Of a stretch of DNA of 40,996 nt, positions 7,150 to 37,637 are shown piece after piece. This DNA is from a virus: positions 1-40,996 of IMG/VR virus record IMGVR_UViG_3300009158_000087. One strand, 5' to 3'. Position 1 is the first letter of the stretch; each line of letters opens with the position of its first letter. The translations under genes were made by a program, and so were the position numbers. The notes below the pieces were generated by a model that saw only the letters and a program-made list of their open reading frames with translations, had not been told where the DNA came from and made no database searches.

Positions 7150-7162
7150 TCCACCGATTTCT

Positions 7163-7486: not shown

Positions 7487-7488
7487 AA

Positions 7489-7950: not shown

Positions 7951-7959
7951 AACTATACT

Positions 7960-23404: not shown

Positions 23405-23412
23405 TATTTATA
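23405..23412 (-). promoter_or_regulatory. T4-type late promoter octamer before the major tube gene
   Basis: The minus strand reads TATAAATA here, overlapping the stop codon region of the sheath gene and ending 38 bases before the tube ATG. A GGAGGG ribosome site follows. T4 late promoters consist essentially of this octamer at -10, read by a phage sigma factor (gp55) with the sliding clamp. Being AT-rich, it can occur by chance, but its position matches two other copies in the window. Confidence 0.55.
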
Positions 23413-24670
23413 GGTTAATAGCTACTTGAACTTCAATGTTCTTGAGTTCAAATGCTGGTGTTATCACGAGATCGATAAATGCTTTGTTCTCTGCTGGAAT
23501 GTAAGAGACTGCAAAGTCACTGTCCAGAAGAGCTCCAAGCTGTTGCATCCCGCGCAAGGCAGAAGTAATTGCTGTTTCCATCGAGTTACGTGTTTGTATT
23601 GTTGATGGTTCACCAATAAACTTCTGACAAACTTGTCTGATCAACAACGAAGCTTCTGTTACAATTCTCATTGTAGAAACTCTTGTGTAATCAGAGCTTG
23701 AACCTGCCAAGGTTAAACCTTCGATGAAGGTTGGAACCTTATTGAAGTTAAGTGCTAAGCAGTTTACTCCAAGATTAGAAAGGGTAAGCTGTTGTGATCT
23801 TGTTGGATTGTACCTGATAGAAGATACGTTGTAAGCTGTCTTGTTAACGGGAGAGGTGAATGAAGACATTCTGCTTATTGCAGCAGCAAGTGTTGTTGCC
23901 CCATTGGTGTAACCCCAAGCTGCTGGATAATTAACTGGCTTCAATTCTGTTGCAATCACAACAACGTGACGACCAACTTCTGACAGGTTTGCATTGTCTC
24001 TTGACAATAGATTAGCAGGACCAGCTCCAAGATGCGTTCCAGTCTGACTTGGAGTCATTGACTCGTAGTTAGATGTGGATGGATTCCAGGGCTTGATTCC
24101 CATTACGGCGAAGCATGGGTGTGAGTTCTCTGCGATGTCTTTAACAGCATTTGCAACTTTAACTGCCCAGCTCTTTGTTGGATCAGTTGAGTTATTTGCA
24201 TAAAAACCATAAGCTGCATCGTCGTTAGGAGTAGCAGTTCCCTGCCAGTCGTTAGGATGACCACCACGACCCCAAGGGATGATGATGTCTGGCTGTGATG
24301 CTTCAGCAGCTGCAAAAGCAGCATCAAAGATGTTAACTGGTGTTGCAGCGCCGTCTGTTATAGTTCCATTGGTATGATTCCATACTGTAGCAGCAGGGAG
24401 TGGAACGATATAAATTCTTTCTGCACCACCTGCAATGAGCTCAATAAAACCTTTGTGAATTGGTGAGTTCTCACCAAATGCTGTTATAATGTCAGATTCT
24501 GTAGTAGCCTGAACTACGTCAAGATCCTGAACATATTGAGTGCCGTCTGCATGAACCGGATTAATAGTTCTTTGTGCAATGAGGCACACTCTTGGTCCGA
24601 CAGGAATGTCCTGACGGGAGATGCTATAAAAGCGATCTTTAATTATAGTTTTTACACCTGGTAAAGCCAT
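23408..24670 (-). CDS. Major tail sheath protein (420 aa)
   Basis: A 420-residue protein starting MALPGVKTIIKDRFYSISRQ, with the short N-terminal arm and typical sheath layout. Landmarks are an early strand PVGPRVCLIAQ, FGENSPIHKGFIELIAGGAE with an IYIVPLP strand following, a central variable domain with alternating strands, and a C-terminal part reading IVTEASLLIRQVCQKFIGEP. It ends with IDLVITPAFELKNIEVQVAI, the classic closing strand of contractile sheaths. The length is near that of small sheath proteins. A strong GGAGGA site lies 10 nt before the ATG in an 83-nt leader, and the gene is GC-richer than the cassette genes. A second, longer sheath-like gene lies two genes upstream. Confidence 0.88.
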   Translation of the reverse strand: MALPGVKTIIKDRFYSISRQDIPVGPRVCLIAQRTINPVHADGTQYVQDLDVVQATTESDIITAFGENSPIHKGFIELIAGGAERIYIVPLPAATVWNHTNGTITDGAATPVNIFDAAFAAAEASQPDIIIPWGRGGHPNDWQGTATPNDDAAYGFYANNSTDPTKSWAVKVANAVKDIAENSHPCFAVMGIKPWNPSTSNYESMTPSQTGTHLGAGPANLLSRDNANLSEVGRHVVVIATELKPVNYPAAWGYTNGATTLAAAISRMSSFTSPVNKTAYNVSSIRYNPTRSQQLTLSNLGVNCLALNFNKVPTFIEGLTLAGSSSDYTRVSTMRIVTEASLLIRQVCQKFIGEPSTIQTRNSMETAITSALRGMQQLGALLDSDFAVSYIPAENKAFIDLVITPAFELKNIEVQVAINL

Positions 24671-24753
24671 TAGATTTAAGTCCTCCGATTGCGGCGATTT
24701 GACAATTTTACTTCAGTCATATAGTAATAGCCTAGCTATCGAAACAAACTACA
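24671..24753 (-). promoter_or_regulatory. Leader of the sheath gene
   Basis: This 83-nt gap is one of the longest in the window. It contains a strong ribosome site (GGAGGA, 24681-24686) and a short hairpin (ATAGC/GCTAT with a 3-nt loop, 24727-24739) without a T run. It lacks TATAAATA and a clear sigma70 promoter. The long leader fits a separately controlled sheath gene, but the promoter itself is not identified. Confidence 0.3.
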
Positions 24754-25494
24754 TTAACTATTTGGGGTGGCAGTTTGATGCAAATCTATGATATTTAGTT
24801 CGGTGTTAGCAAAGTTTGGAGTTGCCATAGAGAATCTTTGATCTAGAATGGACTGCTCATAAGCCATGTATCGACGTACATCTATTGCTATTTTTTCAAT
24901 TGTATCAACAGTTGTAGCTATCAGCTTTTCTGTAGTCAACATATAGGTTATGCTTCTTTTAACTACGTCTGTTGAATCCCTATTTATGTCGGAATCTGAC
25001 AATCTTCTTGAATAAACTAGTTCTGCTGCCCCTAGTCTTTTAAAAACTGGAGTATGCTCTAACATAAAGTCTTCAAATATTTCAGCTAAATTATCTGCTA
25101 CTATAGCTCCTGAATATCTTTTTTCTAATTCGTTCTCAGCAATTGCTCCATCTGCTTTTGTTATTATGGTGAAACTTACTACATTCTGGAATCTTTGACC
25201 GAACACCATTACATCTTTAATGTTTTGAGTATTCCTAGTTCTTGGCTTTGGCTCATTGCTGTGCGTCTTTCTGATTTCAAGGCCATAAACTATAGTAGGA
25301 TACTCCGAATACTGACCACCAGATGTTGGCTGCAACTTGATATCTGGGTATGCATTTTCCCATAAAGCTTTGACAACTGCTATAAATTCTAAGTAGCTAA
25401 GGTTTCCAGAAGCTTGAAGTGGTGCACCAAATCTTCTGTCATTATTAATCTCATTGATTCCTGTTACAGGAAATCTGTAAGCGTTCTGTGGCAT
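24754..25494 (-). CDS. Neck/tail-terminator-like protein (246 aa)
   Basis: A 246-residue protein starting MPQNAYRFPVTGINEIN. It combines N-terminal helices (LEFIAVVKALWENAYPD), strands in the middle (EYPTIVYGLEIRKTH and NVVSFTIITKADG), a helix (NLAEIFEDFMLEHTPVFKRL) and a strand ending SITYMLTTEKL before a helical C-terminus. This alternation resembles tail-terminator or completion proteins that cap the tube beneath the connector. It lies between the second sheath-like gene and the main sheath gene, a normal position for such a protein. Its ATG follows the upstream stop directly (TAAAATG). The assignment is structural inference; I do not recognise a named family. Confidence 0.6.
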   Translation of the reverse strand: MPQNAYRFPVTGINEINNDRRFGAPLQASGNLSYLEFIAVVKALWENAYPDIKLQPTSGGQYSEYPTIVYGLEIRKTHSNEPKPRTRNTQNIKDVMVFGQRFQNVVSFTIITKADGAIAENELEKRYSGAIVADNLAEIFEDFMLEHTPVFKRLGAAELVYSRRLSDSDINRDSTDVVKRSITYMLTTEKLIATTVDTIEKIAIDVRRYMAYEQSILDQRFSMATPNFANTELNIIDLHQTATPNS

Positions 25495-25495
25495 T

Positions 25496-27088
25496 TTATA
25501 CCCCTCTACCTGTGGCTACATTAAAACTTATACTTCTTAAAGTCCTAACTGATGTCAAAGAAATATTAAAATAGATCTTTCCTTTTTCTAGTTTATCTGC
25601 AAATGCGTCAAAATCATAATCCCTTATTATGTCGCCAGACTTTAGAGACATTAGAAGAGCATCAACGCCTCTTATCAACTTGTCGTAGGAAAACTTACCT
25701 AAAGAACCAAAGCTCATAGACTGAATTTCAGCTATGAGCATAGCTACTAGTCTAATGTTTGACGCATCAGCGTAGTTCTCGCTAATTGACATTGTCAAGT
25801 CTCCACTTATTCGAACGTTGTAAGGAGTTCCTTTTCTAGTCCTATGTGCTGGAGTAATAGAGTTTATTTTAATATCTGACAGTTGCTTTGCTTGCAGTGA
25901 GGTCAATCCGCCATTTGCCGCAGCTAATGCAGAAGGGACTTGCTTCTTAGCTAGACCATAGTCAACCCTAGTAGAAGCCAGCACAGAGGCAAAGGCCGCT
26001 GCTGAGGATGAAGAGTAAGTTCTTTGTACTTGCTTATGATTGAATATGCATTCTCCATAAACTAAAAGAATATATTTACCTGTATCTTTAGTTATGAATC
26101 CATCTGAAGTAGTCTCAGATAGTAGATTAAAATCTTTTGATATAAGTTCATTAATGTCAGAATCAGTACTATTAACGCTTCTTGATCCTATAACTCCAAG
26201 TTGAACTTCACCTGTAACTAACTGTACTGAATTGCAATGATCTGCTAATTGTCTAACAAAGTTAACATTTTGAGTCGAAACTATAGAAGTTTCAAGTGGT
26301 ACTATTATATCTAAGAACTCATAATCTTTTATTATGTCATAACATTTTTGAAGTCTTGCATAATAAAGCTCATAAAAAGAATACGTATTTGGAGTTGCAC
26401 TAGCATCTGCATAAGTTTTTATATTTCTTTTTGACACGTCAGGTTGGTACTCATTCATGTATCCAGCTGACATAATGTATATGTCTCTTGCTCCGCACGA
26501 GTAGGCGTCTAGCAAGCCTCTAAGCAGTGGTGATTCCATATCTGCCCTTAATGCATTGATGCCATCTTGCATCGATGTTATTCTATAAATTGAATAAGGT
26601 TCCATTGCACTTGTGTGACCAATTAAGATAACAGTATTAGTTTCAGAATAGCCCATGTCTACATATAGTGACCTACTTCCTACTTGTATGCTTTTGTCAG
26701 ATACTGAGTATGCCTGATCAGGCTGCTGAATGGGGGCCTTGCACTGTAGGTTAAATTCTCTTAAGTCACTTAGTTGATCGGCAGTAGTGCTTATTTGAAT
26801 CGTGTACATTCCTTCAAATAAGTTAATTGGAAGAGTCATGTTTAAAACAAAAGATCCAGTTGACAATCTTTTTAAAGTTGTATTTGAATCTAAGTTTTGC
26901 TTCAAAGAAGGAGTCGCTGAATTTATAAGTGATATATTATATTTAAGTGGGCCAACTATTATTGGTCCTGGTGTATTATATCCTCTTTTTAAATAGACAT
27001 AAATATTTTCGTCTGGATCAATATATGTATGTCCAGATCTATAAACAAAAGGTATCTCTATTGATTCACCTGCATTTAAAATTAACAT
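25496..27088 (-). CDS. Second tail sheath-like protein with N-terminal beta domain (530 aa)
   Basis: A 530-residue protein. Residues 1-120 look like an immunoglobulin-like beta sandwich (starting MLILNAGESIEIPFVYRSG, ending GMYTIQISTTADQL). The rest follows a sheath plan: TNTVILIGHTSA, a helix LLRGLLDAYSCGARDIYIMS, YDIIKDYEFLDIIVPLE, a long central part, and a C-terminus with IRLVAMLIAEIQSM and ISLTSVRTLRSISFNVATG, like the closing strand of sheath proteins. The same type of N-terminal domain starts the 320-residue connector upstream. Some large contractile phages carry two sheath-like proteins; this copy may form a collar or neck ring rather than the contracting tube. Its start overlaps the previous stop by one base (TAATG), implying translational coupling. 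Confidence 0.72.
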   Translation of the reverse strand: MLILNAGESIEIPFVYRSGHTYIDPDENIYVYLKRGYNTPGPIIVGPLKYNISLINSATPSLKQNLDSNTTLKRLSTGSFVLNMTLPINLFEGMYTIQISTTADQLSDLREFNLQCKAPIQQPDQAYSVSDKSIQVGSRSLYVDMGYSETNTVILIGHTSAMEPYSIYRITSMQDGINALRADMESPLLRGLLDAYSCGARDIYIMSAGYMNEYQPDVSKRNIKTYADASATPNTYSFYELYYARLQKCYDIIKDYEFLDIIVPLETSIVSTQNVNFVRQLADHCNSVQLVTGEVQLGVIGSRSVNSTDSDINELISKDFNLLSETTSDGFITKDTGKYILLVYGECIFNHKQVQRTYSSSSAAAFASVLASTRVDYGLAKKQVPSALAAANGGLTSLQAKQLSDIKINSITPAHRTRKGTPYNVRISGDLTMSISENYADASNIRLVAMLIAEIQSMSFGSLGKFSYDKLIRGVDALLMSLKSGDIIRDYDFDAFADKLEKGKIYFNISLTSVRTLRSISFNVATGRGV

Positions 27089-28794: not shown

Positions 28795-29076
28795 TTAAAA
28801 CCACCAAAAGTGCTTAACAATTGACAAACTGGCTAGAATTGTCCAAGCAACATTAAAAAGGATAATTGTAGGCAAGGTCTTGCGGGTTGATGTCCAGATA
28901 AGGCTTACGCTTGACATAATGGCAAAAATATATAGCCACCACCATTGTTTATCAAGAAGAAGACCTGGGAAGATAATTGCAATTTTTGTAGCAAAGCCCC
29001 AAGCCTCAACTGTATTAACACTATTCCAGTATTGTTTAGAAGACATCGTTTTTATAGCATTGAAGATCTTATTCAT
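28795..29076 (-). CDS. Tryptophan-rich small membrane protein (93 aa)
   Basis: A 93-residue protein with about three hydrophobic segments: around residues 26-41 (WGFATKIAIIFPGLLL), 45-63 (WWWLYIFAIMSSVSLIW) and 70-87 (TIILFNVAWTILASLSIV). It contains nine Trp residues, including WWW and a terminal WWF, close to ten percent of the protein. Its ATG overlaps the stop of the 58-residue gene (ATGA), so translation is coupled, and it is the last gene of the halogenase cassette. The size and segments would also suit a holin, but the position and Trp content make this only one option. No signal-peptide cleavage site or enzyme motif is visible. Function is unknown. Confidence 0.72.
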   Translation of the reverse strand: MNKIFNAIKTMSSKQYWNSVNTVEAWGFATKIAIIFPGLLLDKQWWWLYIFAIMSSVSLIWTSTRKTLPTIILFNVAWTILASLSIVKHFWWF

Positions 29077-29249
29077 TGTTCACGTTTCTTTTGTTTATTT
29101 TTAGATATTACTTCATTTTGTTTGTTAATATCCCTTATAAAAGTAAGAGCTTCACTGGCCCTCCATTGAGCATACTGTTGTTCAATTGTAGTGACAATTT
29201 TTTCAGGTTCTGCATTATGCTCAGAAGGTGTTAAATGTAGATTTTGCAT
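29073..29249 (-). CDS. Small charged protein, 58 aa
   Basis: A short gene read by hand. It starts with ATG at 29247-29249, three bases after the stop of the 230-residue gene, and ends in a TGA overlapping the next ATG (29073-29076). The protein begins MQNLHLTPSEHNAEPEKI, has a probable helix (TTIEQQYAQWRASEALTFI) and ends in a very basic tail (SKNKQKKREQ). There are no Cys residues and no membrane segment. The exact fit between two genes, leaving no spare bases, supports a real coding sequence. It may be a partner of the membrane protein that follows; the function is unknown. Confidence 0.65.
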   Translation of the reverse strand: MQNLHLTPSEHNAEPEKIVTTIEQQYAQWRASEALTFIRDINKQNEVISKNKQKKREQ

Positions 29250-29252
29250 TGT

Positions 29253-29945
29253 TTATTCTAAAACTTTATCAATTTGTTGTTCAAATGTCAACTCGGGGTA
29301 CTTTTGACATGTATGAACAATCCACTGCTTAAACTGTTGTGACATTGCTGGATGTTCTGGAATGATCTTGTAGTCGTCATTACCCTTTAAAAACTTGGCA
29401 AGGTGCATGTCAGGCATGGCGTCAATCTCGTCTAAAATAACTTGAGGAACTTCAAGCGTATCAAATGCCATCTTTGAATAGATGGCCATGGGATGATCGC
29501 TATTAAATGGCTCTTCGACCATGAACGACCATTCTCTCATAATTTTAAAACATTGGTAAATTGATCTTGCTAACCACATTGACATTGGGGTAGGATTTTT
29601 TTGTAGATCTGGAATAAGTGTACTGCCATCTGCATCGGTCTGTTTCATTTGCAGGTAGTCAATAAAGAAGTTAGGTACGTGAGAAATCACATGACCCCAC
29701 TTGTCAATTGAAGTGGTTTGAACTGAAAAATCTTCGTCATAGTCTGACTTCAATCCAGTTTCCCACGAGTCTTTTTCGTAAGGTGTACCTACTGCTACTC
29801 CTATGCCGCCATAAGAAAGGTTTTCGCATCTTCCGCCTCTATTGGCGTTCTTTCCCTCTTCAATAAAAATACACTTTTGGATAAAGAATACTCCCAGCTC
29901 TAATGGTCCGGCCTCTAATAGAAGTCTGTGTTCATCTATAACCAT
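29253..29945 (-). CDS. Halogenase-cassette protein, unknown function (230 aa)
   Basis: A 230-residue soluble protein starting MVIDEHRLLLEAGPLELGVF. A conserved-looking N-terminal part has GRCENLSYGGIGVAVG and DEDFSVQTTSIDKWGHVISH. The middle is helical (MSMWLARSIYQCFKIMREWS) and the C-terminus is acidic and helical (MPDMHLAKFLKGNDDY, LTFEQQIDKVLE). There are two Cys residues outside any pair motif and no clear nucleotide or metal site. It sits 2 nt after the 81-residue paralogue gene and 3 nt before the 58-residue gene, so it belongs to the cassette operon. A link to the modification chemistry is plausible from context only. Confidence 0.72.
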   Translation of the reverse strand: MVIDEHRLLLEAGPLELGVFFIQKCIFIEEGKNANRGGRCENLSYGGIGVAVGTPYEKDSWETGLKSDYDEDFSVQTTSIDKWGHVISHVPNFFIDYLQMKQTDADGSTLIPDLQKNPTPMSMWLARSIYQCFKIMREWSFMVEEPFNSDHPMAIYSKMAFDTLEVPQVILDEIDAMPDMHLAKFLKGNDDYKIIPEHPAMSQQFKQWIVHTCQKYPELTFEQQIDKVLE

Positions 29946-29947
29946 GA

Positions 29948-30193
29948 TTATTCCTCACTGTTTAGTTGTTCTATTTTTTTTTCAATTGCAACCATTTTTT
30001 CACAATGGCTTTTTAAAAAAAGATTATTTTCATTAAATTGTATACCAATTAAATTTTTTTCTGAATAATTTTTGTAATCAAATGTTTCTGGATCAAAACC
30101 AGCAAGTAAACAGTATTTGTATAGCTCTATTGATATTGATTGTTTTACTTGTGATAAAAAATTAATCTTATCTTGAGGATTTTGAGTTGTCAT
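29948..30193 (-). CDS. Small cassette protein, paralogue of the 76-aa protein at 33459-33689
   Basis: An 81-residue helical protein starting MTTQNPQDKINFLSQVKQSI. Residues about 12-43 match the 76-residue protein that opens the cassette: a helix with VK-x-S, then YKYCLLAGFDPETFDYKNY here against YRLCAILGIDSDTFDPEDY there. Both share Tyr, Cys, Gly, Asp and the TFD-x-x-x-Y turn, and both have a second helix with a Cys near the C-terminus (HCEKMVAIEKKIEQL here). A short two-helix protein of this kind could be an adaptor or substrate-presenting protein. It lies 5 nt before the 261-residue gene in genome order and is probably co-translated with it. Confidence 0.75.
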   Translation of the reverse strand: MTTQNPQDKINFLSQVKQSISIELYKYCLLAGFDPETFDYKNYSEKNLIGIQFNENNLFLKSHCEKMVAIEKKIEQLNSEE

Positions 30194-30198
30194 ATTGT

Positions 30199-30984
30199 TT
30201 ATTTTCTTCTAAAATAACTTTTCTTTTTTATACTGTTTGATTCTAGTTCCGCATCAAAATCTTTTGTTGCTCTTCTATATGCAGCAGAGGTAGAACCTAT
30301 TGGGAATAAAGAACCATTTCCATATCCTCTTGCGTGATACATCTTATACATTGAATCATCTTCAAATGTAATTTTTGAAATATCTTCACTTCTTTTAAAT
30401 GGAATTAGATGCATTAAGGGTGTTCCGTATTCAATCTTAAATGATGAATTACCAGTAATATTTAACACACAATTTAAGTTGTGATAAAAATCAGTATTTA
30501 CGACAGCTGGTATCACATGAAAGTTTTTATTTGGCTCATACATAACTGGAAGAACTAAAGTTGACCAACCTGGCGCTGTTCTAAATAGCCATGGATTAAC
30601 TATCTTTGGATAATAGCCGTCCTGAACATCTCTTACTTCTGACATTGGACATTTGCCGGTAGACTCAAACGGAAAAGGTTCATTTGTAAATTGAAATTGA
30701 GAAAATGGAATATTCTCCATCATAAGATTCCATTTAGAATCTGAATCAGGACTTGGCTCTAAATAAATATTTGTCCATGCAGGAACTGTGACCCCAATTG
30801 ATAAATAGTCCATTACACCAGCACAGCGTCTAACTGATTTGCCTTTTGGTATGAGTCTAAACCATTTCGGAAGAGAAGCTGGATTATTTACAATAGGCGG
30901 CATTTCTAACAGTCTATTATCGTGTGGAGTTATAATTATTTCTCCCGGTTTTGGCTTCTTAGTTTGCCCGTAATGCTTATGCAT
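30199..30984 (-). CDS. DUF6065-like protein of the halogenase cassette (261 aa)
   Basis: A 261-residue protein starting MHKHYGQTKKPKPGEIIITP. Ordered landmarks are LPKWFRLIPKGKSVRRCAGV, VMDYLSIGVTVPAWTNIYL, a segment with IVNPWLFRTAPGWSTLVLPV, FHVIPAVVNTDFYHNLNCVL, and YGTPLMHLIPFKRSEDI. From memory this order (a PxWF-type start, a PWLxxTPPGYS-like centre, a VDTD-F/Y step, then a GTP..HLIPFKR end) is that of DUF6065-type proteins, often near flavin halogenase genes and of unknown role; I could not check it. The fold looks like a cupin-type beta sandwich, but no metal triad is evident. It starts within the last 8 bases of the halogenase gene, so the two are coupled. Confidence 0.72.
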   Translation of the reverse strand: MHKHYGQTKKPKPGEIIITPHDNRLLEMPPIVNNPASLPKWFRLIPKGKSVRRCAGVMDYLSIGVTVPAWTNIYLEPSPDSDSKWNLMMENIPFSQFQFTNEPFPFESTGKCPMSEVRDVQDGYYPKIVNPWLFRTAPGWSTLVLPVMYEPNKNFHVIPAVVNTDFYHNLNCVLNITGNSSFKIEYGTPLMHLIPFKRSEDISKITFEDDSMYKMYHARGYGNGSLFPIGSTSAAYRRATKDFDAELESNSIKKKSYFRRK

Positions 30985-32473
30985 AATTCTCTATCTCTCT
31001 TAATGCCTCAGCATGATCTACAAGTTCGTGGTTATGTCTATTTGAATTAGTCTGACTCATTGAGTTCTTTACTATGCCATGCAAGTTCAATCTTCGCAAA
31101 GAAAGGCCAGCACTATTTCTATTTAATACATTTTGACCCTGTGCTACGTGAATAAAATGAGCGGAAGCAAATAACTGCCCACTATTTGTTGGTATGTCAT
31201 TTCTGTTTGGAGGACGCTCTGACCATAAGTCAAGCAAGTTTTGCAGACCTTCTGGAATTGGCATGTTTGCCATTTCTCTCCAGAATGGAGTATCTCTTCT
31301 ATCAGAAATGTAATGAAGTCTAACCATATCAAGTATGTTAAGCATCATTGCTTCCATGTCTGCATTGTATTTTTTGTGCATTGCGGTTGATTCTGGAGTG
31401 TATGCTGCAAGAGATGGTATTAGCCATCTCATCTGCTGGATTGTTGATCCTATACTAGATGCCTCTAATGGCTCAACAAAACTTGAAGAAAGGCCAACTG
31501 CGCAACAGTTTTTAACCCAAGATTTTTTTAAATACCCTGCGTCAAATCTTATTATTCTATGATTAGGTATTTTTGCACCAATCATTTTTTCTGCTTCTTC
31601 TACAGCTTCTTCTTCAGATAAGAACTTAGAGCTAAATACGTATCCGTTACCTCTTCTGCTTTGCGTTGGAATCTCCCACATCCAACCAGACGATGCTGCT
31701 CTAGCTCTTGTGTATGGTCTTATTTCTCCATTTGGATCAGACTGTGTTGGAAAAGCTATTGCTGAATCGCATAGCAAATAATCCTTAAAAGAAACCCATT
31801 CGGTATTCTGTAGTGAATTCATCAAAACTCTGGAGAATCCTGAAGCATCAATCCAAAAGTCTGATTGTATTTCATTTCCATCTTGTGTTTTTACTGATGT
31901 AATATTTCCATTTTTTTCATCTAAATTTACATCTTTTACTTCTGCGTCAATTATCTTAATCATTCTTTCAAAACAAAGTTGAGAAAAATACTGATTTAAT
32001 TTAAACGTATCAAAATGAAATTGATTTGTATTTTCGTGAAGACCTAGTCTTCTAATTTTATTACTGTGTAATCCAACAGATGCTGTTTGATGAGTTAATA
32101 GTTTTCCCTTTTCTATAAAACCCATATATGTTGGATAGGATGAGAACGACCAAAGTTGATCTTCTCCATTGATGCTATGGAAATAATCTGGAATCTCAGT
32201 ATTCCAATTTTCAAACCTTATACCATACTTGTGAGTTGCCTCAGTTGATATTAATAGTTCATCGGTTGGGATGTCACAGATTTTCATAAACTCTCGCCAA
32301 TGCTCTGTGCTTCCTTCTCCAACGCCAATTATGCCTATTTTTGAAGAAGATAAAATTGTTATTTCACAATTTGGAAAAGCTCTTTTTAACATTAGGGCTG
32401 ATATAAATCCAGCTGTACCAGAACCAATTATAGTTATTTTAAAATTTTCGTTTTGAGTCATCATAAATACCAT
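30977..32473 (-). CDS. Flavin-dependent halogenase (tryptophan halogenase family, 498 aa)
   Basis: An FAD-binding GSGTAG loop lies at residues 17-22. IGVGEGSTEHWREF follows, and THKYGIRFENW (80-90) places Lys82 at the position of the catalytic lysine K79 of PrnA (which reads FKAAxKF). The family motif GWMWEIP is at 263-269. FVEPLEASSI (332-341) holds the glutamate region, and 498 residues is a normal length. Such enzymes use FADH2 from a separate reductase, O2 and halide to make HOX, which the lysine guides to an electron-rich substrate. Viral members exist (VirX1 of cyanophage Syn10 is reported as an iodinase). No reductase gene is seen here. A second ATG at 32464 overlaps the oxygenase stop (ATGA) and may be the true start, three residues inside the coordinates given. 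Confidence 0.92.
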   Translation of the reverse strand: MVFMMTQNENFKITIIGSGTAGFISALMLKRAFPNCEITILSSSKIGIIGVGEGSTEHWREFMKICDIPTDELLISTEATHKYGIRFENWNTEIPDYFHSINGEDQLWSFSSYPTYMGFIEKGKLLTHQTASVGLHSNKIRRLGLHENTNQFHFDTFKLNQYFSQLCFERMIKIIDAEVKDVNLDEKNGNITSVKTQDGNEIQSDFWIDASGFSRVLMNSLQNTEWVSFKDYLLCDSAIAFPTQSDPNGEIRPYTRARAASSGWMWEIPTQSRRGNGYVFSSKFLSEEEAVEEAEKMIGAKIPNHRIIRFDAGYLKKSWVKNCCAVGLSSSFVEPLEASSIGSTIQQMRWLIPSLAAYTPESTAMHKKYNADMEAMMLNILDMVRLHYISDRRDTPFWREMANMPIPEGLQNLLDLWSERPPNRNDIPTNSGQLFASAHFIHVAQGQNVLNRNSAGLSLRRLNLHGIVKNSMSQTNSNRHNHELVDHAEALREIENYA

Positions 32474-33066
32474 GTTACCAGAGAATACTTAGTTCCGTCA
32501 ACAACTGGTCTTGCTATATGTAAGTACGGATAGTTGGAAGGAAAAAAGATAACACTTCCTTCATTCAACTTTATGCTTAAATCAAAATATGGAAACTCTA
32601 ACTGTCCTCCAGTAGAATCATTCTTTAAGCAAGCTACCATTGAGAATACTCTAATAATGTTTGATTTAGTATCTGAATCGCTATGTGCTCTATATTGAGC
32701 GCCATTTAAATACTTAAGAACGCTCATCGGCTCATGAATAAAAGAATTAATATTAAATTCTAAACCATAGTCTTTTACACATTCATCTATTTTTTGATAA
32801 ATAGAATCTTTAAAAAGTGGATATAATCTGTGGGTGTTTTTAGGGTCCATGATAAGAGAAATATCACAAGATATAGAGCTTCTGTATTCAGAATAGTTAC
32901 CAGAACCAGTAAGGGAAGCGTCCCAATAAACGGCTCCTTCTGGAGCACTGCATTCTTTTTCTAACTCTTCTATAAACTTATCTGCATTAAAGATATTTTC
33001 ATATAACACAATTCCAGGTGCTAAAGATGTTATTATTTTTTCAGTTGACAACTTCAATCTCTCCAC
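32461..33066 (-). CDS. 2-oxoglutarate/Fe(II)-dependent oxygenase (prolyl hydroxylase-like, 201 aa)
   Basis: A 201-residue protein with the double-stranded beta-helix signature. His128-x-Asp130 lies in YRAHSDSD, and the second histidine His183 in YLHIARPV. Lys193 in GTKYSLVTWY sits where Arg/Lys binds 2-oxoglutarate. The upstream strand VLKYLNGAQY and the glycine/aromatic strand GSVIFFPSNYPYLHI fit the P4H-type family. It would hydroxylate a protein or small molecule in the cytoplasm, coupled to decarboxylation of 2-oxoglutarate. The start is uncertain: GTG at 33066 is the longest choice, while TTG at 33051 has GGAGAG seven bases upstream. Its stop overlaps a halogenase ATG (ATGATGA), so the two are translated together. 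The product may act on the same substrate as the halogenase. Confidence 0.85.
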   Translation of the reverse strand: MERLKLSTEKIITSLAPGIVLYENIFNADKFIEELEKECSAPEGAVYWDASLTGSGNYSEYRSSISCDISLIMDPKNTHRLYPLFKDSIYQKIDECVKDYGLEFNINSFIHEPMSVLKYLNGAQYRAHSDSDTKSNIIRVFSMVACLKNDSTGGQLEFPYFDLSIKLNEGSVIFFPSNYPYLHIARPVVDGTKYSLVTWYL

Positions 33067-33457
33067 TGTCTAATATGTTGTTGTCTTTTATAATTTTAAT
33101 AGTCCAATTTCCATTTTTAGGAAATCTAATTATATATCTAACAAAGTGTTGTTCCATAAAAGACATTTTTGCTTTAATGTTTAAATCATCTATTGAAGCC
33201 CAGCACTCTACCTGTGGATCTAAGTTTATCCAATCATTTTCATAACCTACTGGACAAGCAAACATCTTTCTTACTTTTTTGGGAAAACCCAAGAATCTTT
33301 CTTTTGGAATAAAAATAACCTGAACAATATTTCTATCAAAATTTAAAGATTTAGTATGTTCGTTTTCACCATAAAGTATTGGAAGACCGGTTTGAACGGC
33401 AATAGATTCTGCTTCTTTTTTATATTCTTCAGAAGGAGAATATACAATTCTATTCAC
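33041..33457 (-). CDS. Cassette protein of unknown function (138 aa)
   Basis: A 138-residue protein that begins with GTG (MNRIVYSPSEEYKKEAESIA); the frame fits the stop of the preceding gene, and a GAGG site is present. The N-terminus has a helix, then VQVIFIPKERFLG and a segment with CPVGYENDWINLD. The C-terminal part looks like a small beta sandwich (HFVRYIIRFPKNGNWTIKII, ending LDSGEIEVVN). There are two Cys residues and no metal or nucleotide motif. It overlaps the oxygenase gene by up to 26 nt (or 11 nt if the TTG start is used), so the two are coupled. It may be an accessory protein of the oxygenase, but no family is recognised. Confidence 0.7.
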   Translation of the reverse strand: MNRIVYSPSEEYKKEAESIAVQTGLPILYGENEHTKSLNFDRNIVQVIFIPKERFLGFPKKVRKMFACPVGYENDWINLDPQVECWASIDDLNIKAKMSFMEQHFVRYIIRFPKNGNWTIKIIKDNNILDSGEIEVVN

Positions 33458-33458
33458 A

Positions 33459-33689
33459 TTAATCCTCTAATTTAGAAGCAACCGCCATATAAGCCTTGCA
33501 AGCTTGTTCTAACATGATTGTTTCATGTTGAACTACTGGAGATGGAGACACATAATCCTCTGGATCAAATGTATCAGAATCTATACCCAAGATAGCACAT
33601 AGTCTATATATATCTCTTGATTTTGAAGCTTTTACTTCTTCAAGAATTGCGTTTTTTTGTTCTTCTGTTAATGAATTTAAAAAAGACAT
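33459..33689 (-). CDS. Small cassette protein, paralogue of the 81-aa protein at 29948-30193
   Basis: A 76-residue helical protein starting MSFLNSLTEEQKNAILEEVK, then a helix-turn with YRLCAILGIDSDTFDPEDY. This matches YKYCLLAGFDPETFDYKNY of the 81-residue protein four genes further on. The C-terminal helix again carries one Cys (LEQACKAYMAVASKLED). A strong AGGAG lies before its ATG, and the gene opens the cassette right after the His-rich fibre. Two related copies bracketing the oxygenase, halogenase and DUF6065-like genes suggest a common partner or carrier role; this is inference. No metal-binding pair or helix-turn-helix is evident. Confidence 0.75.
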   Translation of the reverse strand: MSFLNSLTEEQKNAILEEVKASKSRDIYRLCAILGIDSDTFDPEDYVSPSPVVQHETIMLEQACKAYMAVASKLED

Positions 33690-33704: not shown

Positions 33705-35264
33705 TTATAAGTTTAGTATAACATATGAATATCCACTTGAGGCAGCATAGTTATCTGAATCTGCAGTGAGGCCTGATCTAACGTCTATAGTAATACCAAC
33801 TGGGAGAGAGGCATCTGTTACTATAATTGAACCACCGCCACCACCAGCTCCTCCACGCTTACCTGGGCTTCCGGTTACAGCTGGAGCTCCAGCACCTCCG
33901 TCGCCACCAGCTCCTCCGCTATATACACTGGGAGCAACGTGAGACCCAGCATTAGCTGGTACGTGTGTCCAGTTTTGGGTAGTATGAGAATTGGTGTGAC
34001 CTATATGAGGCTCATGATTGTGATGGGGTCCAGTTCCATGAATGTTTCCATGGTTATTACTTACGTGATAGTGACCAAAGTGACCTGGATGGGAATGCCC
34101 ATAAACATAATGGTTTTGATTTACATTGTCTCCATGGTGACCGCCGTCTGCATGTTGGTAATGGTGATTGTGTCCATACTGATGGCCTGGATGAGTATGT
34201 CCTGCGTGAGCGTGCGTGTGAATACCTTTGTAGCCAATATCATATGCGTAACTGTGAGAATGAAAGTTTCTTCCCACCAAAGCTATATGATGAATTGCGT
34301 AATCTCCATGGCCATGGTGGGGAATATGACCATGGTTATGAGTGTCATATGCTCCATGTGCTCCAGAATTTGCATTTGCATGAGATATTTGTGGAGCCTG
34401 GTGACCATCAACTAAGTCAGAACCAGAAGTTCCTCTTTGTGTAGTTGAAGCGTAAGCAGTTTTTGCCGGACCTGCTGAACCTCCAGTTCCTGCAGTTCCA
34501 GAAGATCCAGTAGCACCGCTGATTCCAATACTAATTACTTTTCCTGATCCTGTAATAGTTTTAGCTGCAATAAGGACAACACCGCCACCAGCTCCACCAG
34601 CTCCACCAGCTCCACCAGGGCCAACTGTTGCTCCCGTTTTTGTCCCTGGATATCCAGTGTTTCCTCTGCCTCCAGCTGCGTTTACAGTTGTAGCATTGGG
34701 GGCATACGTTCCGTTTGTGCCGGCTGCACCGCCGATTCCAGGCCAACTATTTGGTGCATATATTGGTGCGTTTGCTCCAGTGGTTCCAGTTGTACCTGCT
34801 GAGCCACCTTTTACTGAGATAAAAGATTGCGTAGATGGATCAGCCACTGAGCCAAATAATAAAAATTCTATATTTGTTCTATAGGTTTCTGGAAGCTGTG
34901 TAGCGCTTGAAGAAGATCCTCCGCCTCCTGCACCACCAACGGAATATGTTAACGATGTTGAGTTACTAGTTCCAGAATTAGTTCCATTTGATACGGTTCC
35001 AGATGGCTCACCTACTGTACTTCCGCTTAAAGTCCCTATACCTATTCCTCCATTTAGTGTTAGCGTATCTTGAACAAATATTCTAAAACCTGAAGTATTT
35101 AACATAACTCCTGAGTTAACAGTTAAGTTGCTATAATACATATCCCTTGTTAATGTAGTATTGCTAGCAATAGTAACAGTGCCATCAGTTCCTGTTCCAT
35201 AAACAGAATCATTACCAATTCTTTGTACTAATGTTTGTTTATTGTATCTTTCCAGGCCAGCCAT
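33705..35264 (-). CDS. Gly-rich tail fibre with large histidine-rich insert (519 aa)
   Basis: I chose the ATG at 35262-35264 rather than the upstream ATG at 35303. It follows the previous stop by one base (TGATATG), and its start MAGLERYNKQ matches MSGLVRYGAP of the preceding fibre. Residues 1-100 are a beta domain (VYGTGTDGTVTI, RDMYYSNLTVNSGVMLNTSG) shared with that fibre. Gly-rich linkers follow (GGAGGGGSSSS near 120, GGAGGAGGG near 220). Residues about 285-445 are extremely His-rich with many HxH pairs, then another Gly-rich part (GGAGGGGGSIIVTDAS) and a C-terminal strand shared with the paralogue. HxH pairs in the tip of T4 gp37 coordinate iron ions, so metal-stabilised trimer fibres are likely. 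It is probably a receptor-binding or adhesin-type tail protein. Confidence 0.75.
   Translation of the reverse strand: MAGLERYNKQTLVQRIGNDSVYGTGTDGTVTIASNTTLTRDMYYSNLTVNSGVMLNTSGFRIFVQDTLTLNGGIGIGTLSGSTVGEPSGTVSNGTNSGTSNSTSLTYSVGGAGGGGSSSSATQLPETYRTNIEFLLFGSVADPSTQSFISVKGGSAGTTGTTGANAPIYAPNSWPGIGGAAGTNGTYAPNATTVNAAGGRGNTGYPGTKTGATVGPGGAGGAGGAGGGVVLIAAKTITGSGKVISIGISGATGSSGTAGTGGSAGPAKTAYASTTQRGTSGSDLVDGHQAPQISHANANSGAHGAYDTHNHGHIPHHGHGDYAIHHIALVGRNFHSHSYAYDIGYKGIHTHAHAGHTHPGHQYGHNHHYQHADGGHHGDNVNQNHYVYGHSHPGHFGHYHVSNNHGNIHGTGPHHNHEPHIGHTNSHTTQNWTHVPANAGSHVAPSVYSGGAGGDGGAGAPAVTGSPGKRGGAGGGGGSIIVTDASLPVGITIDVRSGLTADSDNYAASSGYSYVILNL
33930..34411 (-). repeat. Histidine-rich insert coding region with HxH repeats
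   Basis: This part of the fibre gene encodes about 160 residues with roughly 40 histidines, arranged as irregular HxH and HxHxH units (HNHGH, HTHAHAGHTH, HGHYH) with Gly, Pro, Tyr, Asn and Thr between. The units are degenerate rather than exact repeats. No equivalent insert is present in the related 236-residue fibre, so it looks inserted between the shared N- and C-terminal parts. Confidence 0.75.
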
Positions 35265-35265
35265 A

Positions 35266-35976
35266 TCACACCAGTTGAAGGTATTTAGAAGTTCCCGATG
35301 CATTCCCTGTAACGGAAGTGGTCACTCCAGCTGGAAGAGCGGCAGAAGAACTAATCACAATTACCACTCCACCACCTGCTGGCGATGTTGCATTAGCGGA
35401 GATAGTTGCAGATCCAGATGTAGGAGGAGTGATGTATCTTGCAGCAACAATGACAACACCTCCACCTTCTTGTGATGTTCCGCCTGCACCCCCGCGAAGA
35501 AACGTTGGCGTGGTTGTTGTTGCACTGACTGCATAACCTTTGATCGCTTGCCATGGAACGTCGTAGTAGTTTGAACTACCAAGACCAGCAATAGGTGCTG
35601 TAGCTGTCTGTGTTGATGATGCACCACCAAGACTGTTTGTGACGGGCGTATTTGCTGCTCCGCCTTGAGCAATGGATCCTGATGTTGAAAAGCCAGTAGT
35701 AAAACCAATAACGGACGATGCATTGAGCGTAAGGATATTCTTAACAAATAGTCTGTAGCCAGCAGTCTTGAGTGTTACGCTTGCATTGATGGTCAGGTTG
35801 TAGCAATAAATGTCTCGAGTCATTGTGTAAACCGATGATGAGGGGGCCATGGAAAGAATGGTTGTGGTGCCATCAAGAGTGACAGAACCATCCATCCCTG
35901 TCCCGTATACAGGGTCCGGAGAGTCGATGAACGATGCCATCGCACTAGGTGCCCCATATCTAACTAATCCCGACAT
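35266..35976 (-). CDS. Short Gly-rich fibre, paralogue of the His-rich fibre (236 aa)
   Basis: A 236-residue protein starting MSGLVRYGAPSAMASFIDSP. The N-terminal domain (VYGTGMDGSVTLDG, RDIYCYNLTINASVTLKTAG, YRLFVKNILTLNAS) matches the first 100 residues of the His-rich fibre, and the end (GGGVVIVISSSAALPAGVTT) matches its C-terminus. The middle is Ala/Thr/Gly/Ser-rich (GGAANTPVTNSLGGASSTQT). It is therefore a compact version lacking the histidine insert. The DNA is GC-richer than that of the His-rich copy, suggesting a different history. It is probably a fibre or adhesin subunit in the same tail-fibre assembly. The stop lies one base before the next ATG. Confidence 0.72.
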   Translation of the reverse strand: MSGLVRYGAPSAMASFIDSPDPVYGTGMDGSVTLDGTTTILSMAPSSSVYTMTRDIYCYNLTINASVTLKTAGYRLFVKNILTLNASSVIGFTTGFSTSGSIAQGGAANTPVTNSLGGASSTQTATAPIAGLGSSNYYDVPWQAIKGYAVSATTTTPTFLRGGAGGTSQEGGGVVIVAARYITPPTSGSATISANATSPAGGGVVIVISSSAALPAGVTTSVTGNASGTSKYLQLV

Positions 35977-35977
35977 T

Positions 35978-36337
35978 TTATGTTTCTTCTATTCCAACCA
36001 CAGTTATGTTAACAGAAGTAGCAGAACTACAAAGAGCAGCTAATTGATCACTATTTGTAGCATTTGCTGTTGATCCATTGTTGTTTAAGACTAATGAACA
36101 GTTGAAGGACATTGATTCATTTGCCGCAAGCGACATTGCGCTAATGATATCATGAGTTGCTGCTTCAGCTACTCCTAATGGCTTTAATCTAACCGTAACA
36201 GTTTTTGCGGATGCTGTTGTATTAGTTAAAATTATTTGTTTAACGATTGTAGTAGTGCTGATCGGAACTGTATAGTAAATGGCAGAAGATGCCGTTAACT
36301 GTGCGGGACCAGCAAGTCGTTTTTGTGTAATTGCCAT
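35978..36337 (-). CDS. Small beta-rich virion protein in the fibre module (119 aa)
   Basis: A 119-residue protein starting MAITQKRLAGPAQLTASSAI, then IYYTVPISTTTIVKQIILTN. Alternating strands include KTVTVRLKPLGVAEA, ESMSFNCSLVLNNNG and SVNITVVGIEET. Proteins with a K-R-L-x-G-P start and a YTVP strand are common small structural proteins near fibres in aquatic and actinobacterial phages (from memory, not checked). The gene begins directly after the collagen-like fibre; its GGAGGT ribosome site lies in the last codons of that gene (ATGGAGGTCATCTAAATG). Likely role: fibre connector or capping protein. There are no enzymatic motifs. Confidence 0.68.
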   Translation of the reverse strand: MAITQKRLAGPAQLTASSAIYYTVPISTTTIVKQIILTNTTASAKTVTVRLKPLGVAEAATHDIISAMSLAANESMSFNCSLVLNNNGSTANATNSDQLAALCSSATSVNITVVGIEET

Positions 36338-37555
36338 TTAGATGACCTCCATGAAAAATCTAATTTCTGTATCTCTAGCTCTACCATAAAATTGAGCAGC
36401 TGTTACATTATTGGTAACCGTTAAACTACTTAAAGTTCCGACTGATGTAAGTGAAGATAGGGTTGTTACTGCTGTATTAACAAGTGTACCACTTGTTGGC
36501 AGAGTTACGCTAGTGGTCCCAGTTGTTGTTAGGGTTAACGAGTTTGCTCCAGAAGTAACAAAATTTCCAGCTAAAGTAATAGTATTTGAACCATTATTAA
36601 CTCCAGTACCACCATAAGTAGGACCTAGTAATGTTCCATTCCAAGTTCCTGTGACTATCGTACCTAGTGAGGTAATATTAGTTGTTGCCGCATTGACCCA
36701 ATTAGTTCCGTTGTATCTTAAAATTTGAGCAGTTGAAGGACTTGTAATGACAGTATCAGACAAGTCATCTAATGTTACAGTACCTATGCTCCCAGAAGGT
36801 CCTGTTGGCCCAGTTGGCCCTGTAGGGCCAGTGGCTCCAGTCGCACCTGCTGGTACTAAGAAGTTAAATGTAGCAGCACTTGATGAACCGACATTGGTAA
36901 CAGAGGCTGAAGATCCAGCTGCGCCTGTTGTTGTAGTTCCTACTGTTATAGTAGCGGCTGAACCGGTAGGGCCTGTAGGACCAGTAGGGCCTGTAGGACC
37001 TGTTGGGCCAGCTACCGTAGAAGCAGCTCCTGTAGGGCCAGTTGGACCTGTTGGCCCAGTAGGGCCAACAGAACCAGTAGTTGCCGTGTCTGCCCAAATG
37101 ATACTAGTGTCAATAGGAGCTGTAGCTTGAACTACTATCCCAGAAGGTCCAGTAGGGCCCTGCTGGACTCCTGCCGTCGCTATATAGACTGATACCCTGA
37201 CCGAGCTAGCGGATGGTGGAGAATCAAAATAAACGGTTATAATATTGCTAGAAGTGGCTTCCCATGATGTTAAAATTAAACCATATGGAGAAGCAGCTTC
37301 TCTAACAGTAACACTTACATCTCTGCTACCAAAGTTATGAGTCAGTACAAATGAAGTACTAGTTCCATCACCTATTGTGGCGTTGTAAACTGTTCCTGCA
37401 AGGTTTACTGCACTTGTAAACTCTACTACGTTGTTTGAACTGTTTTTATAAAATAGTTTTCCATCAGCATAGTTGATTGCTAATTCGCCATATTCTAAAG
37501 ATGAAGGCGTTGAAGATGGTGTGCTTGTACGTTTAAGTTTAATTGTATTTGCCAT
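36338..37555 (-). CDS. Collagen-like tail fibre (405 aa)
   Basis: The protein starts [20 protein letters not shown], a virion-attachment type N-terminus shared with the 688-residue fibre. A beta domain follows ([20 protein letters not shown], about 67-87), then Gly-Pro-Thr collagen-like blocks at residues 133-139, 164-176, 183-198 and 237-254. The remaining part has fibre strands ([26 protein letters not shown]) and ends abruptly with [18 protein letters not shown]. Collagen blocks in phage fibres form triple helices that make long flexible shafts. A consensus sigma70-like promoter lies about 55 bases upstream. The Pro-Thr repeats are possible substrates for the prolyl hydroxylase-like enzyme at 32461-33066; that is a hypothesis. 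Confidence 0.8.
36788..37078 (-). repeat. Gly-Pro-Thr (collagen-like) codon repeats
   Basis: The fibre gene contains clustered 9-base units encoding Gly-Pro-Thr (minus strand GG-CC-AC type), in three main blocks: about 36788-36848, 36962-37010 and 37028-37078. Units are near-identical with third-base variation, so slippage could change the length of the shaft. Confidence 0.75.
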
Positions 37556-37578
37556 CTATTGCCTTAAGTCAAATATGT

Positions 37579-37594
37579 GTTTTAAAATTAAAAC
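37579..37594. repeat. AT-rich inverted repeat in the fibre leader
   Basis: The sequence gttttaa-aa-ttaaaac is a 7-base inverted repeat around two bases, lying between the sigma70-like promoter and the start of the collagen-like fibre. It could be an operator or only AT-rich spacing; no known binding site is recognised. Confidence 0.25.
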
Positions 37595-37608
37595 TATATA
37601 TATTCTAT

Positions 37609-37637
37609 ATTATAGCTTTAGAATGTGCCACCGTCAA
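37609..37637 (-). promoter_or_regulatory. Consensus sigma70-like promoter before the collagen-like fibre
   Basis: On the minus strand TTGACG (37632-37637) is followed by 17 bases and a perfect TATAAT (37609-37614), with the start expected about 45 bases before the ATG at 37555. The -35 box lies in the last codons of the 688-residue fibre. Spacing and both hexamers match the bacterial vegetative consensus, so the gene may be read by unmodified host polymerase. Confidence 0.55.

Follow-up and report, generated by a model that had tools for sequence, protein, structure and literature searches.

Why should a phage carry a flavin-dependent halogenase and an oxygenase among its tail genes? The question arises from a stretch of viral DNA of 40,996 nucleotides, in the following termed the window (IMG/VR virus record IMGVR_UViG_3300009158_000087, positions 1 to 40,996). 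An earlier note, made from the sequence alone, had described nine coupled genes between a fibre module and neck genes as an AT-rich modification cassette, which could make a halogenated, hydroxylated product during infection or modify a virion protein. This observation was confirmed: the nine genes are real, lie on the minus strand in the order described and are tightly packed (Table 1). The interpretation is partly supported, as the evidence favours the second of its two options, the modification of a virion protein.

Table 1. Genes of the cassette (g1 to g9) and the fibre-like genes directly upstream; c-numbers denote protein families among the related loci
Gene	Position	Strand	Product	Observations
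c8	35978..36337	-	119-aa protein, first gene of the conserved fibre-like trio	phrog_20100 (unknown function) 1.7e-9; precedes c5/c6 in many relatives
c5	35266..35976	-	236-aa fibre-like protein sharing the N-terminal domain type of c6	in 37 of 39 non-redundant halogenase loci, window included; one weak match in 50,697 phage records
c6	33705..35303	-	532-aa Gly-rich fibre-like protein with His-rich tip, proposed substrate	29% His and 10 Tyr in its best 100-aa window; phrog_13336 (unknown function) 9e-6; directly upstream of the cassette in most halogenase loci
g1 (c0)	33459..33689	-	76-aa small protein	c0 family in 61 of 70 halogenase groups
g2 (c7)	33041..33457	-	138-aa protein of unknown role	c7 family in 51 of 70 halogenase groups; no Pfam match, only chance-level PDB matches
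g3	32461..33066	-	2OG-Fe(II) oxygenase (start uncertain)	PF13640 (2OG-FeII_Oxy_3) 2e-10; phrog_61 3e-25
g4	30977..32473	-	flavin-dependent halogenase (start uncertain)	PF04820 (Trp_halogenase) 8e-109; aligned to solved halogenases
g5	30199..30984	-	DUF6065-like protein with predicted dUTPase fold	phrog_7084 (unknown function) 8.5e-25; model pLDDT 87.7
g6 (c0)	29948..30193	-	81-aa paralogue of g1	28% identity to g1 over 64 aa, E 2e-10
g7 (c9)	29253..29945	-	230-aa protein, no PDB fold match found	45 of 70 halogenase groups; model pLDDT 92.6
g8	29073..29249	-	58-aa lineage-specific ORF	cluster of 3 including the window; 2 of 80 loci by tblastn
g9 (c10)	28795..29076	-	93-aa Trp-rich, probably membrane protein, last gene of the module	tblastn identities mostly 66-92% in relatives; 55 of 59 c10 groups have the halogenase; no match in 50,697 phage records

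The couplings were read in the sequence. The ATGA at 29073-29076 and the 8-nt overlap at 30977-30984 were correctly noted, whereas the ATGATGA placed at 32461-32464 is slightly off: the stop codon TGA of the oxygenase gene is at 32461-32463 and overlapped by an ATG at 32464, with other ATGs at 32473 and 32461, so that the start of the halogenase is uncertain. The start of the oxygenase is uncertain as well, since a GTG at 33066 overlaps g2 by 26 nt. The AT-richness is true but trivial. The GC content is 34.1% in the block, 44.3% in 33705-39684, 38.2% in 23408-27088 and 16.7% in 30001-30060, but the third-position GC is.20-.25 for genes 2-5 and.38/.37 for the 230- and 93-aa genes, against.22-.35 for the fibres. 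The contrast thus reflects amino-acid composition, and a foreign origin inferred from AT content was rejected. The neck genes downstream were not confirmed by name: the 92-aa protein had only a weak tail-fibre match (0.027), the 320- and 530-aa proteins had none, and the 125-aa protein matched 'virion structural' at 1e-4. The PHROG sheath match is located at 23408-24670. Promoter and terminator scans were near shuffle level (53 against a mean of 42.5, sd 6.3; 10 against 8.4, sd 3.1), and TATAAATA occurred 4 times against 4.4 expected, hence co-transcription is inferred from strand and spacing only.

The identities of the two enzymes are solid. The halogenase scored 364.9 bits against a Pfam cut-off of 21 and carries the motifs GSGTAG (17-22) and WMWEIP (264-269) as well as the catalytic K82 and E337, conserved in 36-39 of 39 (K82 in 38, E337 in 39); K82 and E337 aligned to the lysine and glutamate of solved halogenases. 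NCBIfam gave only superfamily matches below the cut-off (QhpG 6.5e-9, CmlS, LodB, GoxB and others). Halogenating activity and substrate were not assayed, and no flavin reductase was recognised in the cassette. The oxygenase scored 41.8 bits against 27, and its metal triad H128, D130 and H183 and the basic 2OG-binding K193 are present in 49, 48, 48 and 46 of 49 relatives. A phmmer search of the PDB with this protein returned no match at E 1e-3. The lysine at the 2OG site is prolyl 4-hydroxylase-like, but the substrate is unknown. The dN/dS values of 0.077 for the halogenase, against the related locus L004, and 0.10 for the oxygenase indicate purifying selection.

The assignment of g5 to DUF6065 (PF19541) failed the Pfam gathering score, with 14.2 against 26.6 bits, and relatives with 22.8 and 19.3 bits were also below; the protein is therefore termed DUF6065-like. 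Its model has a predicted dUTPase jelly-roll fold (Foldseek 5.5e-5; VIA Z 10.1, rmsd 4.0, 122 aligned; profile 7e-4). Only a C-terminal stretch was matched by the profile and the catalytic motifs were not compared one by one nor the activity tested, so the protein is not classified as a dUTPase. A search of the open-licence literature for DUF6065 returned no paper. The 230-aa protein had no match in the PDB, neither by profile nor by fold, and the profiles of c7 and of a further family, c13, gave only chance-level hits (c13 best 1vbf, E 0.28).

The earlier note had named an independent occurrence of the genes in related phages as the observation that would speak against a functional unit. The outcome was the opposite, as strong co-conservation was seen from three anchor genes. 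Among 80 halogenase loci, the 2OG oxygenase was present in 76 and the DUF6065-like protein in 78; the halogenase was present in 73 of 79 c10 loci and in 53 of 54 c6 loci with 5 kb downstream. When 240 related loci were collapsed to 80 groups, 58 of 60 groups with a full fibre and 6 kb of downstream DNA carried the halogenase. The search patterns for c6 came from five halogenase-linked fibres, so close relatives are over-represented. Exceptions exist in the DNA examined: locus L062 has a halogenase without the rest, and L138, L151 and L161 have c10 without the rest. A casual linkage was rejected. The note had missed that the fibre-like genes upstream (33705-36337) belong to the unit, and that the enzyme set differs with the type of fibre tip.

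This second relation was analysed over 89 groups; 116 groups had been formed and 27 were dropped for lacking a fibre of 340 aa or more with 4 kb downstream. Fibres with a His-rich tip (12% or more in the best 100-aa window) have the halogenase in 61 of 61 groups, low-His fibres in 2 of 28. The two exceptions, L241 (0.08) and L064 (0.11), show that His-richness is not required. Among the dropped groups, L310 (His 0.18) and L313 (0.13) show no halogenase in the short downstream DNA. Ten low-His groups carry a PF11397 glycosyltransferase instead, with the same 2OG-oxygenase/DUF6065-like core, and halogenase and PF11397 never occur together (0 of 89). The DUF6065-like protein is present in 63 of 63 halogenase groups and in 21 of 26 others. 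No PF04820 was found in three whole contigs of the sister lineage, which has another tip and PF11397. Five fibres with the same N-terminal domain, but without a His-, Tyr- or Pro-rich stretch as read by eye, have none of the enzymes. Low complexity alone does not mark these enzyme-less fibres, as their window entropy (3.14-3.58) overlaps that of the halogenase-linked ones (2.67-3.52). The Fisher test of His tip against halogenase gave p 1.8e-20, but this value was downgraded: the fibre-domain tree (139 columns, 37 of 86 inner branches open) gives 3 changes for the halogenase and 5 for His-richness, and only 1 (supported branches) to 3 (all branches) independent contrasts. L239 could not be placed in the tree because its contig starts inside the fibre gene.

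The best explanation, held with moderate confidence, is a fibre-tip post-translational modification module. In this view, the phage makes a fibre-like virion protein with a Gly-rich body and a low-complexity tip (c5/c6) and, from genes directly behind it, the enzymes that modify this tip, presumably during assembly. The shared core would be the 2OG-Fe(II) oxygenase for hydroxylation with the DUF6065-like partner as an inferred substrate-presenting scaffold, while the rest differs with the tip: flavin halogenase with c0/c7, c9 or c13, and c10 for His-rich tips, PF11397 glycosyltransferase for Tyr/Asn/Pro- or Arg-rich tips, and in another low-His lineage (checked in locus L264) an FkbM-type methyltransferase and extra oxygenases. 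In the window, the halogenase most likely acts on Tyr (perhaps His) in the His-rich tip and the oxygenase hydroxylates another residue, giving a halogenated, hydroxylated, perhaps metal-binding or cross-linked adhesive tip. Trp as the general target was weakened, since 19 of 63 tips have no Trp and all 63 have Tyr; the tip of the window has one Trp by a loose tip definition and none in its densest 100-aa window. The gene set, its linkage, the conserved catalytic residues, the purifying selection and the different enzyme sets with different tips rest on direct observation, whereas co-transcription, the role of c5/c6 as virion fibres, the tip as substrate, the modified residue and the purpose are inferred. 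No family names c5 or c6 a fibre or virion protein; this reading relies on their position behind fibre-like genes and on composition. There is no biochemistry, and modified residues on virion tips were not looked at here.

Three other readings were considered. The cassette may make or edit a diffusible small molecule, a halogenated metabolite, and merely sit beside the fibre genes. Flavin halogenases with solved structures are mostly named Trp halogenases, a P450 accompanies 4 of 70 halogenase groups, and a role in antibiotic protection has been suggested as speculation for cyanophage prnA (PMC2984593). This reading is unlikely: no scaffold-making, NRPS/PKS, transport or resistance gene was recognised in the nine genes, the set stays beside the fibre and differs with its tip, and the core also occurs with glycosyltransferase instead of halogenase. 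Likewise unlikely is a modification of host molecules (host surface, a host protein or 2-oxoglutarate signalling) during infection, with the linkage to the fibre reflecting a shared host range. A 2OG/NtcA signalling role was proposed for cyanophage 2OG oxygenases (PMC3037559), and c10 looks like a membrane protein by eye. However, hosts here look actinobacterial (WhiB in 10 of 12 large contigs), so the cyanobacterial NtcA argument does not carry over directly, and again the enzyme set differs with the tip type. A search for the sheath family PF04984 gave 0 of 12 over the cut-off; a search for the T4-type capsid PF07068 gave no match anywhere, controls included, and was thus uninformative. Very unlikely is a RiPP-like system with the small c0 proteins as substrates, whose product goes to the virion or the host. 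The c0 genes often occur in two copies next to oxygenase, c7 or c9 genes, but c0 conserves only a few residues (K, G, D, P motif) and no aromatic or Gly-rich core, and 9 of 70 halogenase groups show no c0 in the DNA examined. A dedicated RiPP search was not run, and the alignment leaves it undecided whether a short precursor with leader and modified core is present.

Phage-borne halogenases of the PF04820 superfamily are already known, namely PrnA-like genes of cyanophages and HTVC008M and VirX1 of cyanophage Syn10, sometimes in structural regions, and VirX1 is active on many aromatic substrates (PMC8407142). The halogenase of the window has at most about 42% identity to any isolate phage protein (41.5% for P-SSM5; 29.1% for Syn10), and the halogenase of Actinomycetia phage DSL-LC01 (PMC10611076) is only 21.8% identical. 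The isolates examined lack the conserved fibre/2OG/DUF6065-like/c10 block. In P-SSM2 and S-H38 no fibre gene is annotated beside the halogenase, while the cultured phage S-SRM01 has a 35%-identical halogenase directly before a Gly-rich adhesin-tip gene with a Trp-rich stretch. Tail-fibre tip adhesins of the gp37-gp38 type share the Gly-rich body with a variable tip, but c6 has no sequence match to phage records, and the His-rich tip and dedicated enzymes are not part of that family. RiPP tailoring clusters, including peptide halogenases such as MibH, also place dedicated tailoring enzymes beside a gene-encoded substrate; here the proposed substrate is a large fibre protein, and no leader peptide, protease or transporter was recognised. 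Hydroxyproline glycosylation of the Skp1 type combines a prolyl 4-hydroxylase with PF11397, and the sister lineage pairs a 2OG oxygenase with PF11397 beside a Pro/Tyr-rich tip, although prolyl specificity of these phage enzymes is not shown. As a material analogy only, with no homology claimed, the jaw proteins of Nereis (Nvjp-1, Nai11527) are Gly/His-rich structural proteins in halogenated, Zn-binding material, with 29% Gly and 16% His in Nai11527 (PMC13120676); they are animal proteins, and the halogenating enzyme was not addressed in the text consulted. The earlier note held that the full set inside a structural operon seemed undescribed, and no description was seen in the open-licence literature searched.

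A wider reading is possible, but tentative: a previously unrecognised class of phage modules in which low-complexity tips of Gly-rich tail fibres are chemically finished by dedicated neighbouring enzymes, with interchangeable chemistries (halogenation, hydroxylation, glycosylation, methylation, P450 oxidation) matched to tip composition around a common core of 2OG oxygenase and dUTPase-fold protein. This would be RiPP-like logic applied to virions, making halo-tyrosine (or halo-histidine) adhesive tips comparable to the halogenated worm jaws, and would explain why many phages carry halogenases and 2OG oxygenases.

Phage tryptophan halogenases and 2OG oxygenases have been noted in cyanophage genomes with only speculative roles in the papers seen: antibiotic protection, 2OG signalling and DNA repair (PMC2984593, PMC3037559). 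The cassette, found in environmental phages probably of actinobacteria, ties a phage halogenase to one gene-encoded candidate substrate beside it and supplies natural contrasts in which tip and enzyme set both differ, which would give a first testable role to the puzzling halogenases of phages, with halogen on Tyr or His and +16 Da on the c6 tip as the expected marks. It also gives context to two orphans, the DUF6065-like protein with its predicted dUTPase fold and the 230-aa protein without a PDB fold match. If true, the modification of the fibre tip adds halogenation to virion-protein chemistry, offers protein-level halogenases, and suggests a layer of fibre diversification beyond sequence change.

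The 40,996-base window, a whole IMG/VR virus record, was 99.994% identical over 17.5 kb to a virus contig of 202,697 bases (L002). All 28 non-overlapping ORFs of 100 aa or more are located on the minus strand. From right to left, fibre-like genes, two of them matching tail-fibre or virion PHROGs, are followed by the nine-gene block and then by structural genes, including a tail sheath (phrog_16991, 4.7e-25) and two tandem genes whose proteins match a major-head family (phrog_9206). The earlier note had described nine coupled genes, and this observation was correct: all nine ORFs exist as described. Solid assignments were obtained for a flavin-dependent halogenase (PF04820, 8e-109) and a 2OG-Fe(II) oxygenase (PF13640, 2e-10; phrog_61, 3e-25). 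The assignment to DUF6065 was below the Pfam cut-off, but phrog_7084 matched at 8.5e-25, thus the protein is called DUF6065-like. The 76- and 81-aa proteins (family c0) are paralogues, whereas the other proteins had no convincing family. The AT-richness pointed out in the note was confirmed for total GC (34.1% against 44.3% in the fibres). However, third-position GC is similar, so the contrast reflects the Gly-rich fibres rather than a foreign block.

The earlier note had asked whether the genes occur independently in related phages; instead, strong co-conservation was seen from three anchor genes. A scan of IMG/VR with the halogenase revealed 124 relatives, of which 80 loci were kept. In these, tblastn detected the 2OG oxygenase in 76, the DUF6065-like protein in 78, the 93-aa protein (c10) in 52, the 230-aa protein (c9) in 46 and the 58-aa ORF in 2 loci. 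Clustering of the ORFs showed a recurring order with variations: c8, c5 and c6 (the fibre-like trio), c0, c7 (the 138-aa protein), 2OG oxygenase, [c9, or the ORF clusters c19 and c13], halogenase, DUF6065-like protein, c0, c9 and c10. The upstream genes c5 and c6 were about as tightly linked as the enzymes: among 39 non-redundant loci, window included, c5 was present in 37, the 2OG oxygenase in 37, the DUF6065-like protein in 38 and c6 in 35. As a second anchor, c10 had at least 237 IMG/VR relatives, although no match was found in 50,697 phage records; of the 79 new loci examined, 73 carried the halogenase and 73 the DUF6065-like protein. This Trp-rich, probably membrane protein is far more conserved than the enzymes. 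The N-terminal domain of c6 served as third anchor and gave 79 loci; of 54 with a fibre and 5 kb of downstream DNA, 53 had the halogenase. The scans overlap in contigs, each kept only its best 80 loci, and the c6 patterns were derived from five halogenase-linked fibres, which introduces a bias. After collapsing 240 loci to 80 groups at 90% nucleotide identity, 58 of 60 fibre groups (fibre of 350 aa or more, 6 kb downstream) had the halogenase, 60 of 60 the DUF6065-like protein and 56 of 60 the 2OG oxygenase.

The cassette is not confined to one phage lineage. Downstream of c10 the genes differ between loci, and the capsid protein of the window was detected in 3 of 12 large cassette contigs, though these records may be fragments. 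WhiB, used in the literature as a marker of actinophages (PMC6802176), scored over the cut-off in 10 of the 12, including the contig of L002. A MAG contig labelled Actinomycetota (L244) carries the cassette and one labelled Gammaproteobacteria (L245) a variant, but MAG labels of phage contigs are uncertain. Two further MAG contigs (L246, L247) had two halogenase ORFs and several 2OG-like genes among unassigned ORFs; their assemblies showed 7 and 6 PF04820 matches.

Coordinates of the gene block and of further features in the window and in related loci
Sequence	Coordinates	Feature
Window	28,795-33,689	nine-gene block
Window	29253-29945	c9, 230-aa protein, candidate unusual fold
Window	28795-29076	c10, 93-aa protein
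Window	21900-22601 and 22678-23367	tandem genes matching phrog_9206, next to structural genes
L248	8649-9866	PF11397 'GlcNAc' glycosyltransferase
L239	1718-2956	PF11397 'GlcNAc' glycosyltransferase
L250	3407-4639	PF11397 'GlcNAc' glycosyltransferase
L265	16668-17822	PF11397 'GlcNAc' glycosyltransferase
L264	8977-18009	another cassette type, with FkbM methyltransferase
L039	11232-12479	cytochrome P450 (PF00067, 1.6e-26) in the cassette
L340 (S-SRM01)	5968-10576	halogenase between a fibre-like protein and an adhesin-tip protein
L085 (Halorubrum phage HF2)	7746-8630	DUF6065-like protein

The protein c6 consists of a conserved N-terminal domain, Gly-rich stretches and a low-complexity tip. In 34 of 35 representatives at least one 100-aa window held 15% His or more (range 0.11-0.43); the protein of the studied window reached 29% with ten Tyr. 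No family names c5 or c6 as fibre. Natural contrasts were provided by loci without the halogenase. L239, the single one of the 54 c6 loci lacking it, led to a sister lineage (L248, L249, L250). There the same trio has a tip rich in Tyr/Asn/Pro/Thr without a His-rich stretch, and is followed by a PF11397 glycosyltransferase, two DUF6065-like proteins and a 2OG oxygenase; no PF04820 was found in the three whole contigs of 49, 33 and 65 kb. Glycosyltransferases of this family occurred in the fibre cassettes beside 2OG oxygenases and Tyr/Asn/Pro- or Arg-rich tips. Two further scans increased the collection to 116 groups, 89 of them with a fibre of 340 aa or more and 4 kb downstream. Of the His-rich tips (12% or more in the best 100-aa window) 61 of 61 were accompanied by the halogenase, of the low-His tips 2 of 28. 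Among the 26 groups without halogenase, 10 had glycosyltransferase, DUF6065-like protein and 2OG oxygenase, 11 had only the DUF6065-like protein and the 2OG oxygenase, and 5 had none of these. One of the eleven, L264, was checked and contained a fibre with a Tyr/Asn tip and a short HxH patch, then a protein weakly similar to a pullulanase-associated domain, two 2OG oxygenases, an FkbM methyltransferase and DUF6065-like proteins. The five enzyme-less fibres share the N-terminal domain and the Gly-rich body; by eye they lack a His-, Tyr- or Pro-rich stretch, though their window entropy overlaps with that of the others. Halogenase and PF11397 never occurred together (0 of 89). However, the association is limited by phylogeny: on the fibre-domain tree the halogenase changes 3 times and His-richness 5 times, with only 1 (well-supported branches) to 3 (all branches) independent contrasts. 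Over random pairings these go the expected way in 0.9 and the other way in 0.0. All 63 halogenase-linked tips contain Tyr, while 19 contain no Trp. Tyr, or His, is the likelier common target; Trp may be modified where present.

The halogenase retains GxGxxG, the Lys K82, WMWEIP and the Glu E337, and is under purifying selection in comparison to the locus L004 (dN/dS 0.077; 2OG oxygenase 0.10; DUF6065-like protein 0.05). The 2OG oxygenase retains HxD...H and a Lys. A flavin reductase was not recognised. The DUF6065-like protein gave a good structure model (pLDDT 87.7) and matched dUTPases by profile (7e-4) and by predicted fold (Foldseek 5.5e-5; VIA Z 10.1, rmsd 4.0, 122 aligned). As it is shared by halogenase and glycosyltransferase cassettes, we infer a role as scaffold; its activity was not assayed. 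A DUF6065-like protein was also present in the archaeal virus Halorubrum phage HF2 (26% identity over 60%), a few genes from the gene of the minor virion protein VP1. The AF2 model of c9 was confident (pLDDT 92.6), but no PDB chain matched (best Foldseek E 0.5; none of 780 chains at Z 2), only three models of uncultured phages. c9 and c13 largely replace one another: of 58 groups, 36 had c9 only, 14 c13 only, 3 both and 5 neither. A P450 was found in 4 of 70 halogenase groups; in some relatives P450s of this cluster are located between c9 and c10, on either strand.

Phage halogenases are known from cyanophages, and VirX1 has been characterised (PMC10452541, PMC8407142). Roles proposed in the literature we consulted are speculative (PMC2984593, PMC3037559). 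Phage 2OG oxygenases resemble a human prolyl hydroxylase in predicted structure (PMC12774648). Searches of an open-licence literature library found no description of a fibre-linked halogenase module. Among isolates the closest context was observed in the cultured Synechococcus phage S-SRM01, where the halogenase directly precedes a Gly-rich 'gp37-gp38 adhesin tip complex' protein with a Trp-rich stretch and no His. HTVC008M has a 33%-Gly protein a few genes from four 2OG/phytanoyl-type genes on the other strand; its halogenase lies beside another such gene before the large terminase. In P-SSM2 and S-H38 no fibre gene is annotated beside the halogenase, and S-SCSM2R has two 2OG genes within 2 kb upstream. 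Gly/His-rich proteins of halogenated, Zn-binding worm jaws offer a material analogy (PMC13120676).

The interpretation in the earlier note, which left open whether a product is made during infection or a virion protein is modified, was partly supported, with the second option favoured. The analysis demonstrated a strong linkage of the enzyme genes to the fibre-like genes, whereas the substrate is inferred and the tip correlation has few independent replicates; that c5 and c6 are virion fibres is likewise inferred, from position and composition. A bolder reading is left open. Phage halogenases and substrate-adjacent tailoring enzymes are both known. The best explanation, held with moderate confidence, is a module for the modification of the fibre tip.
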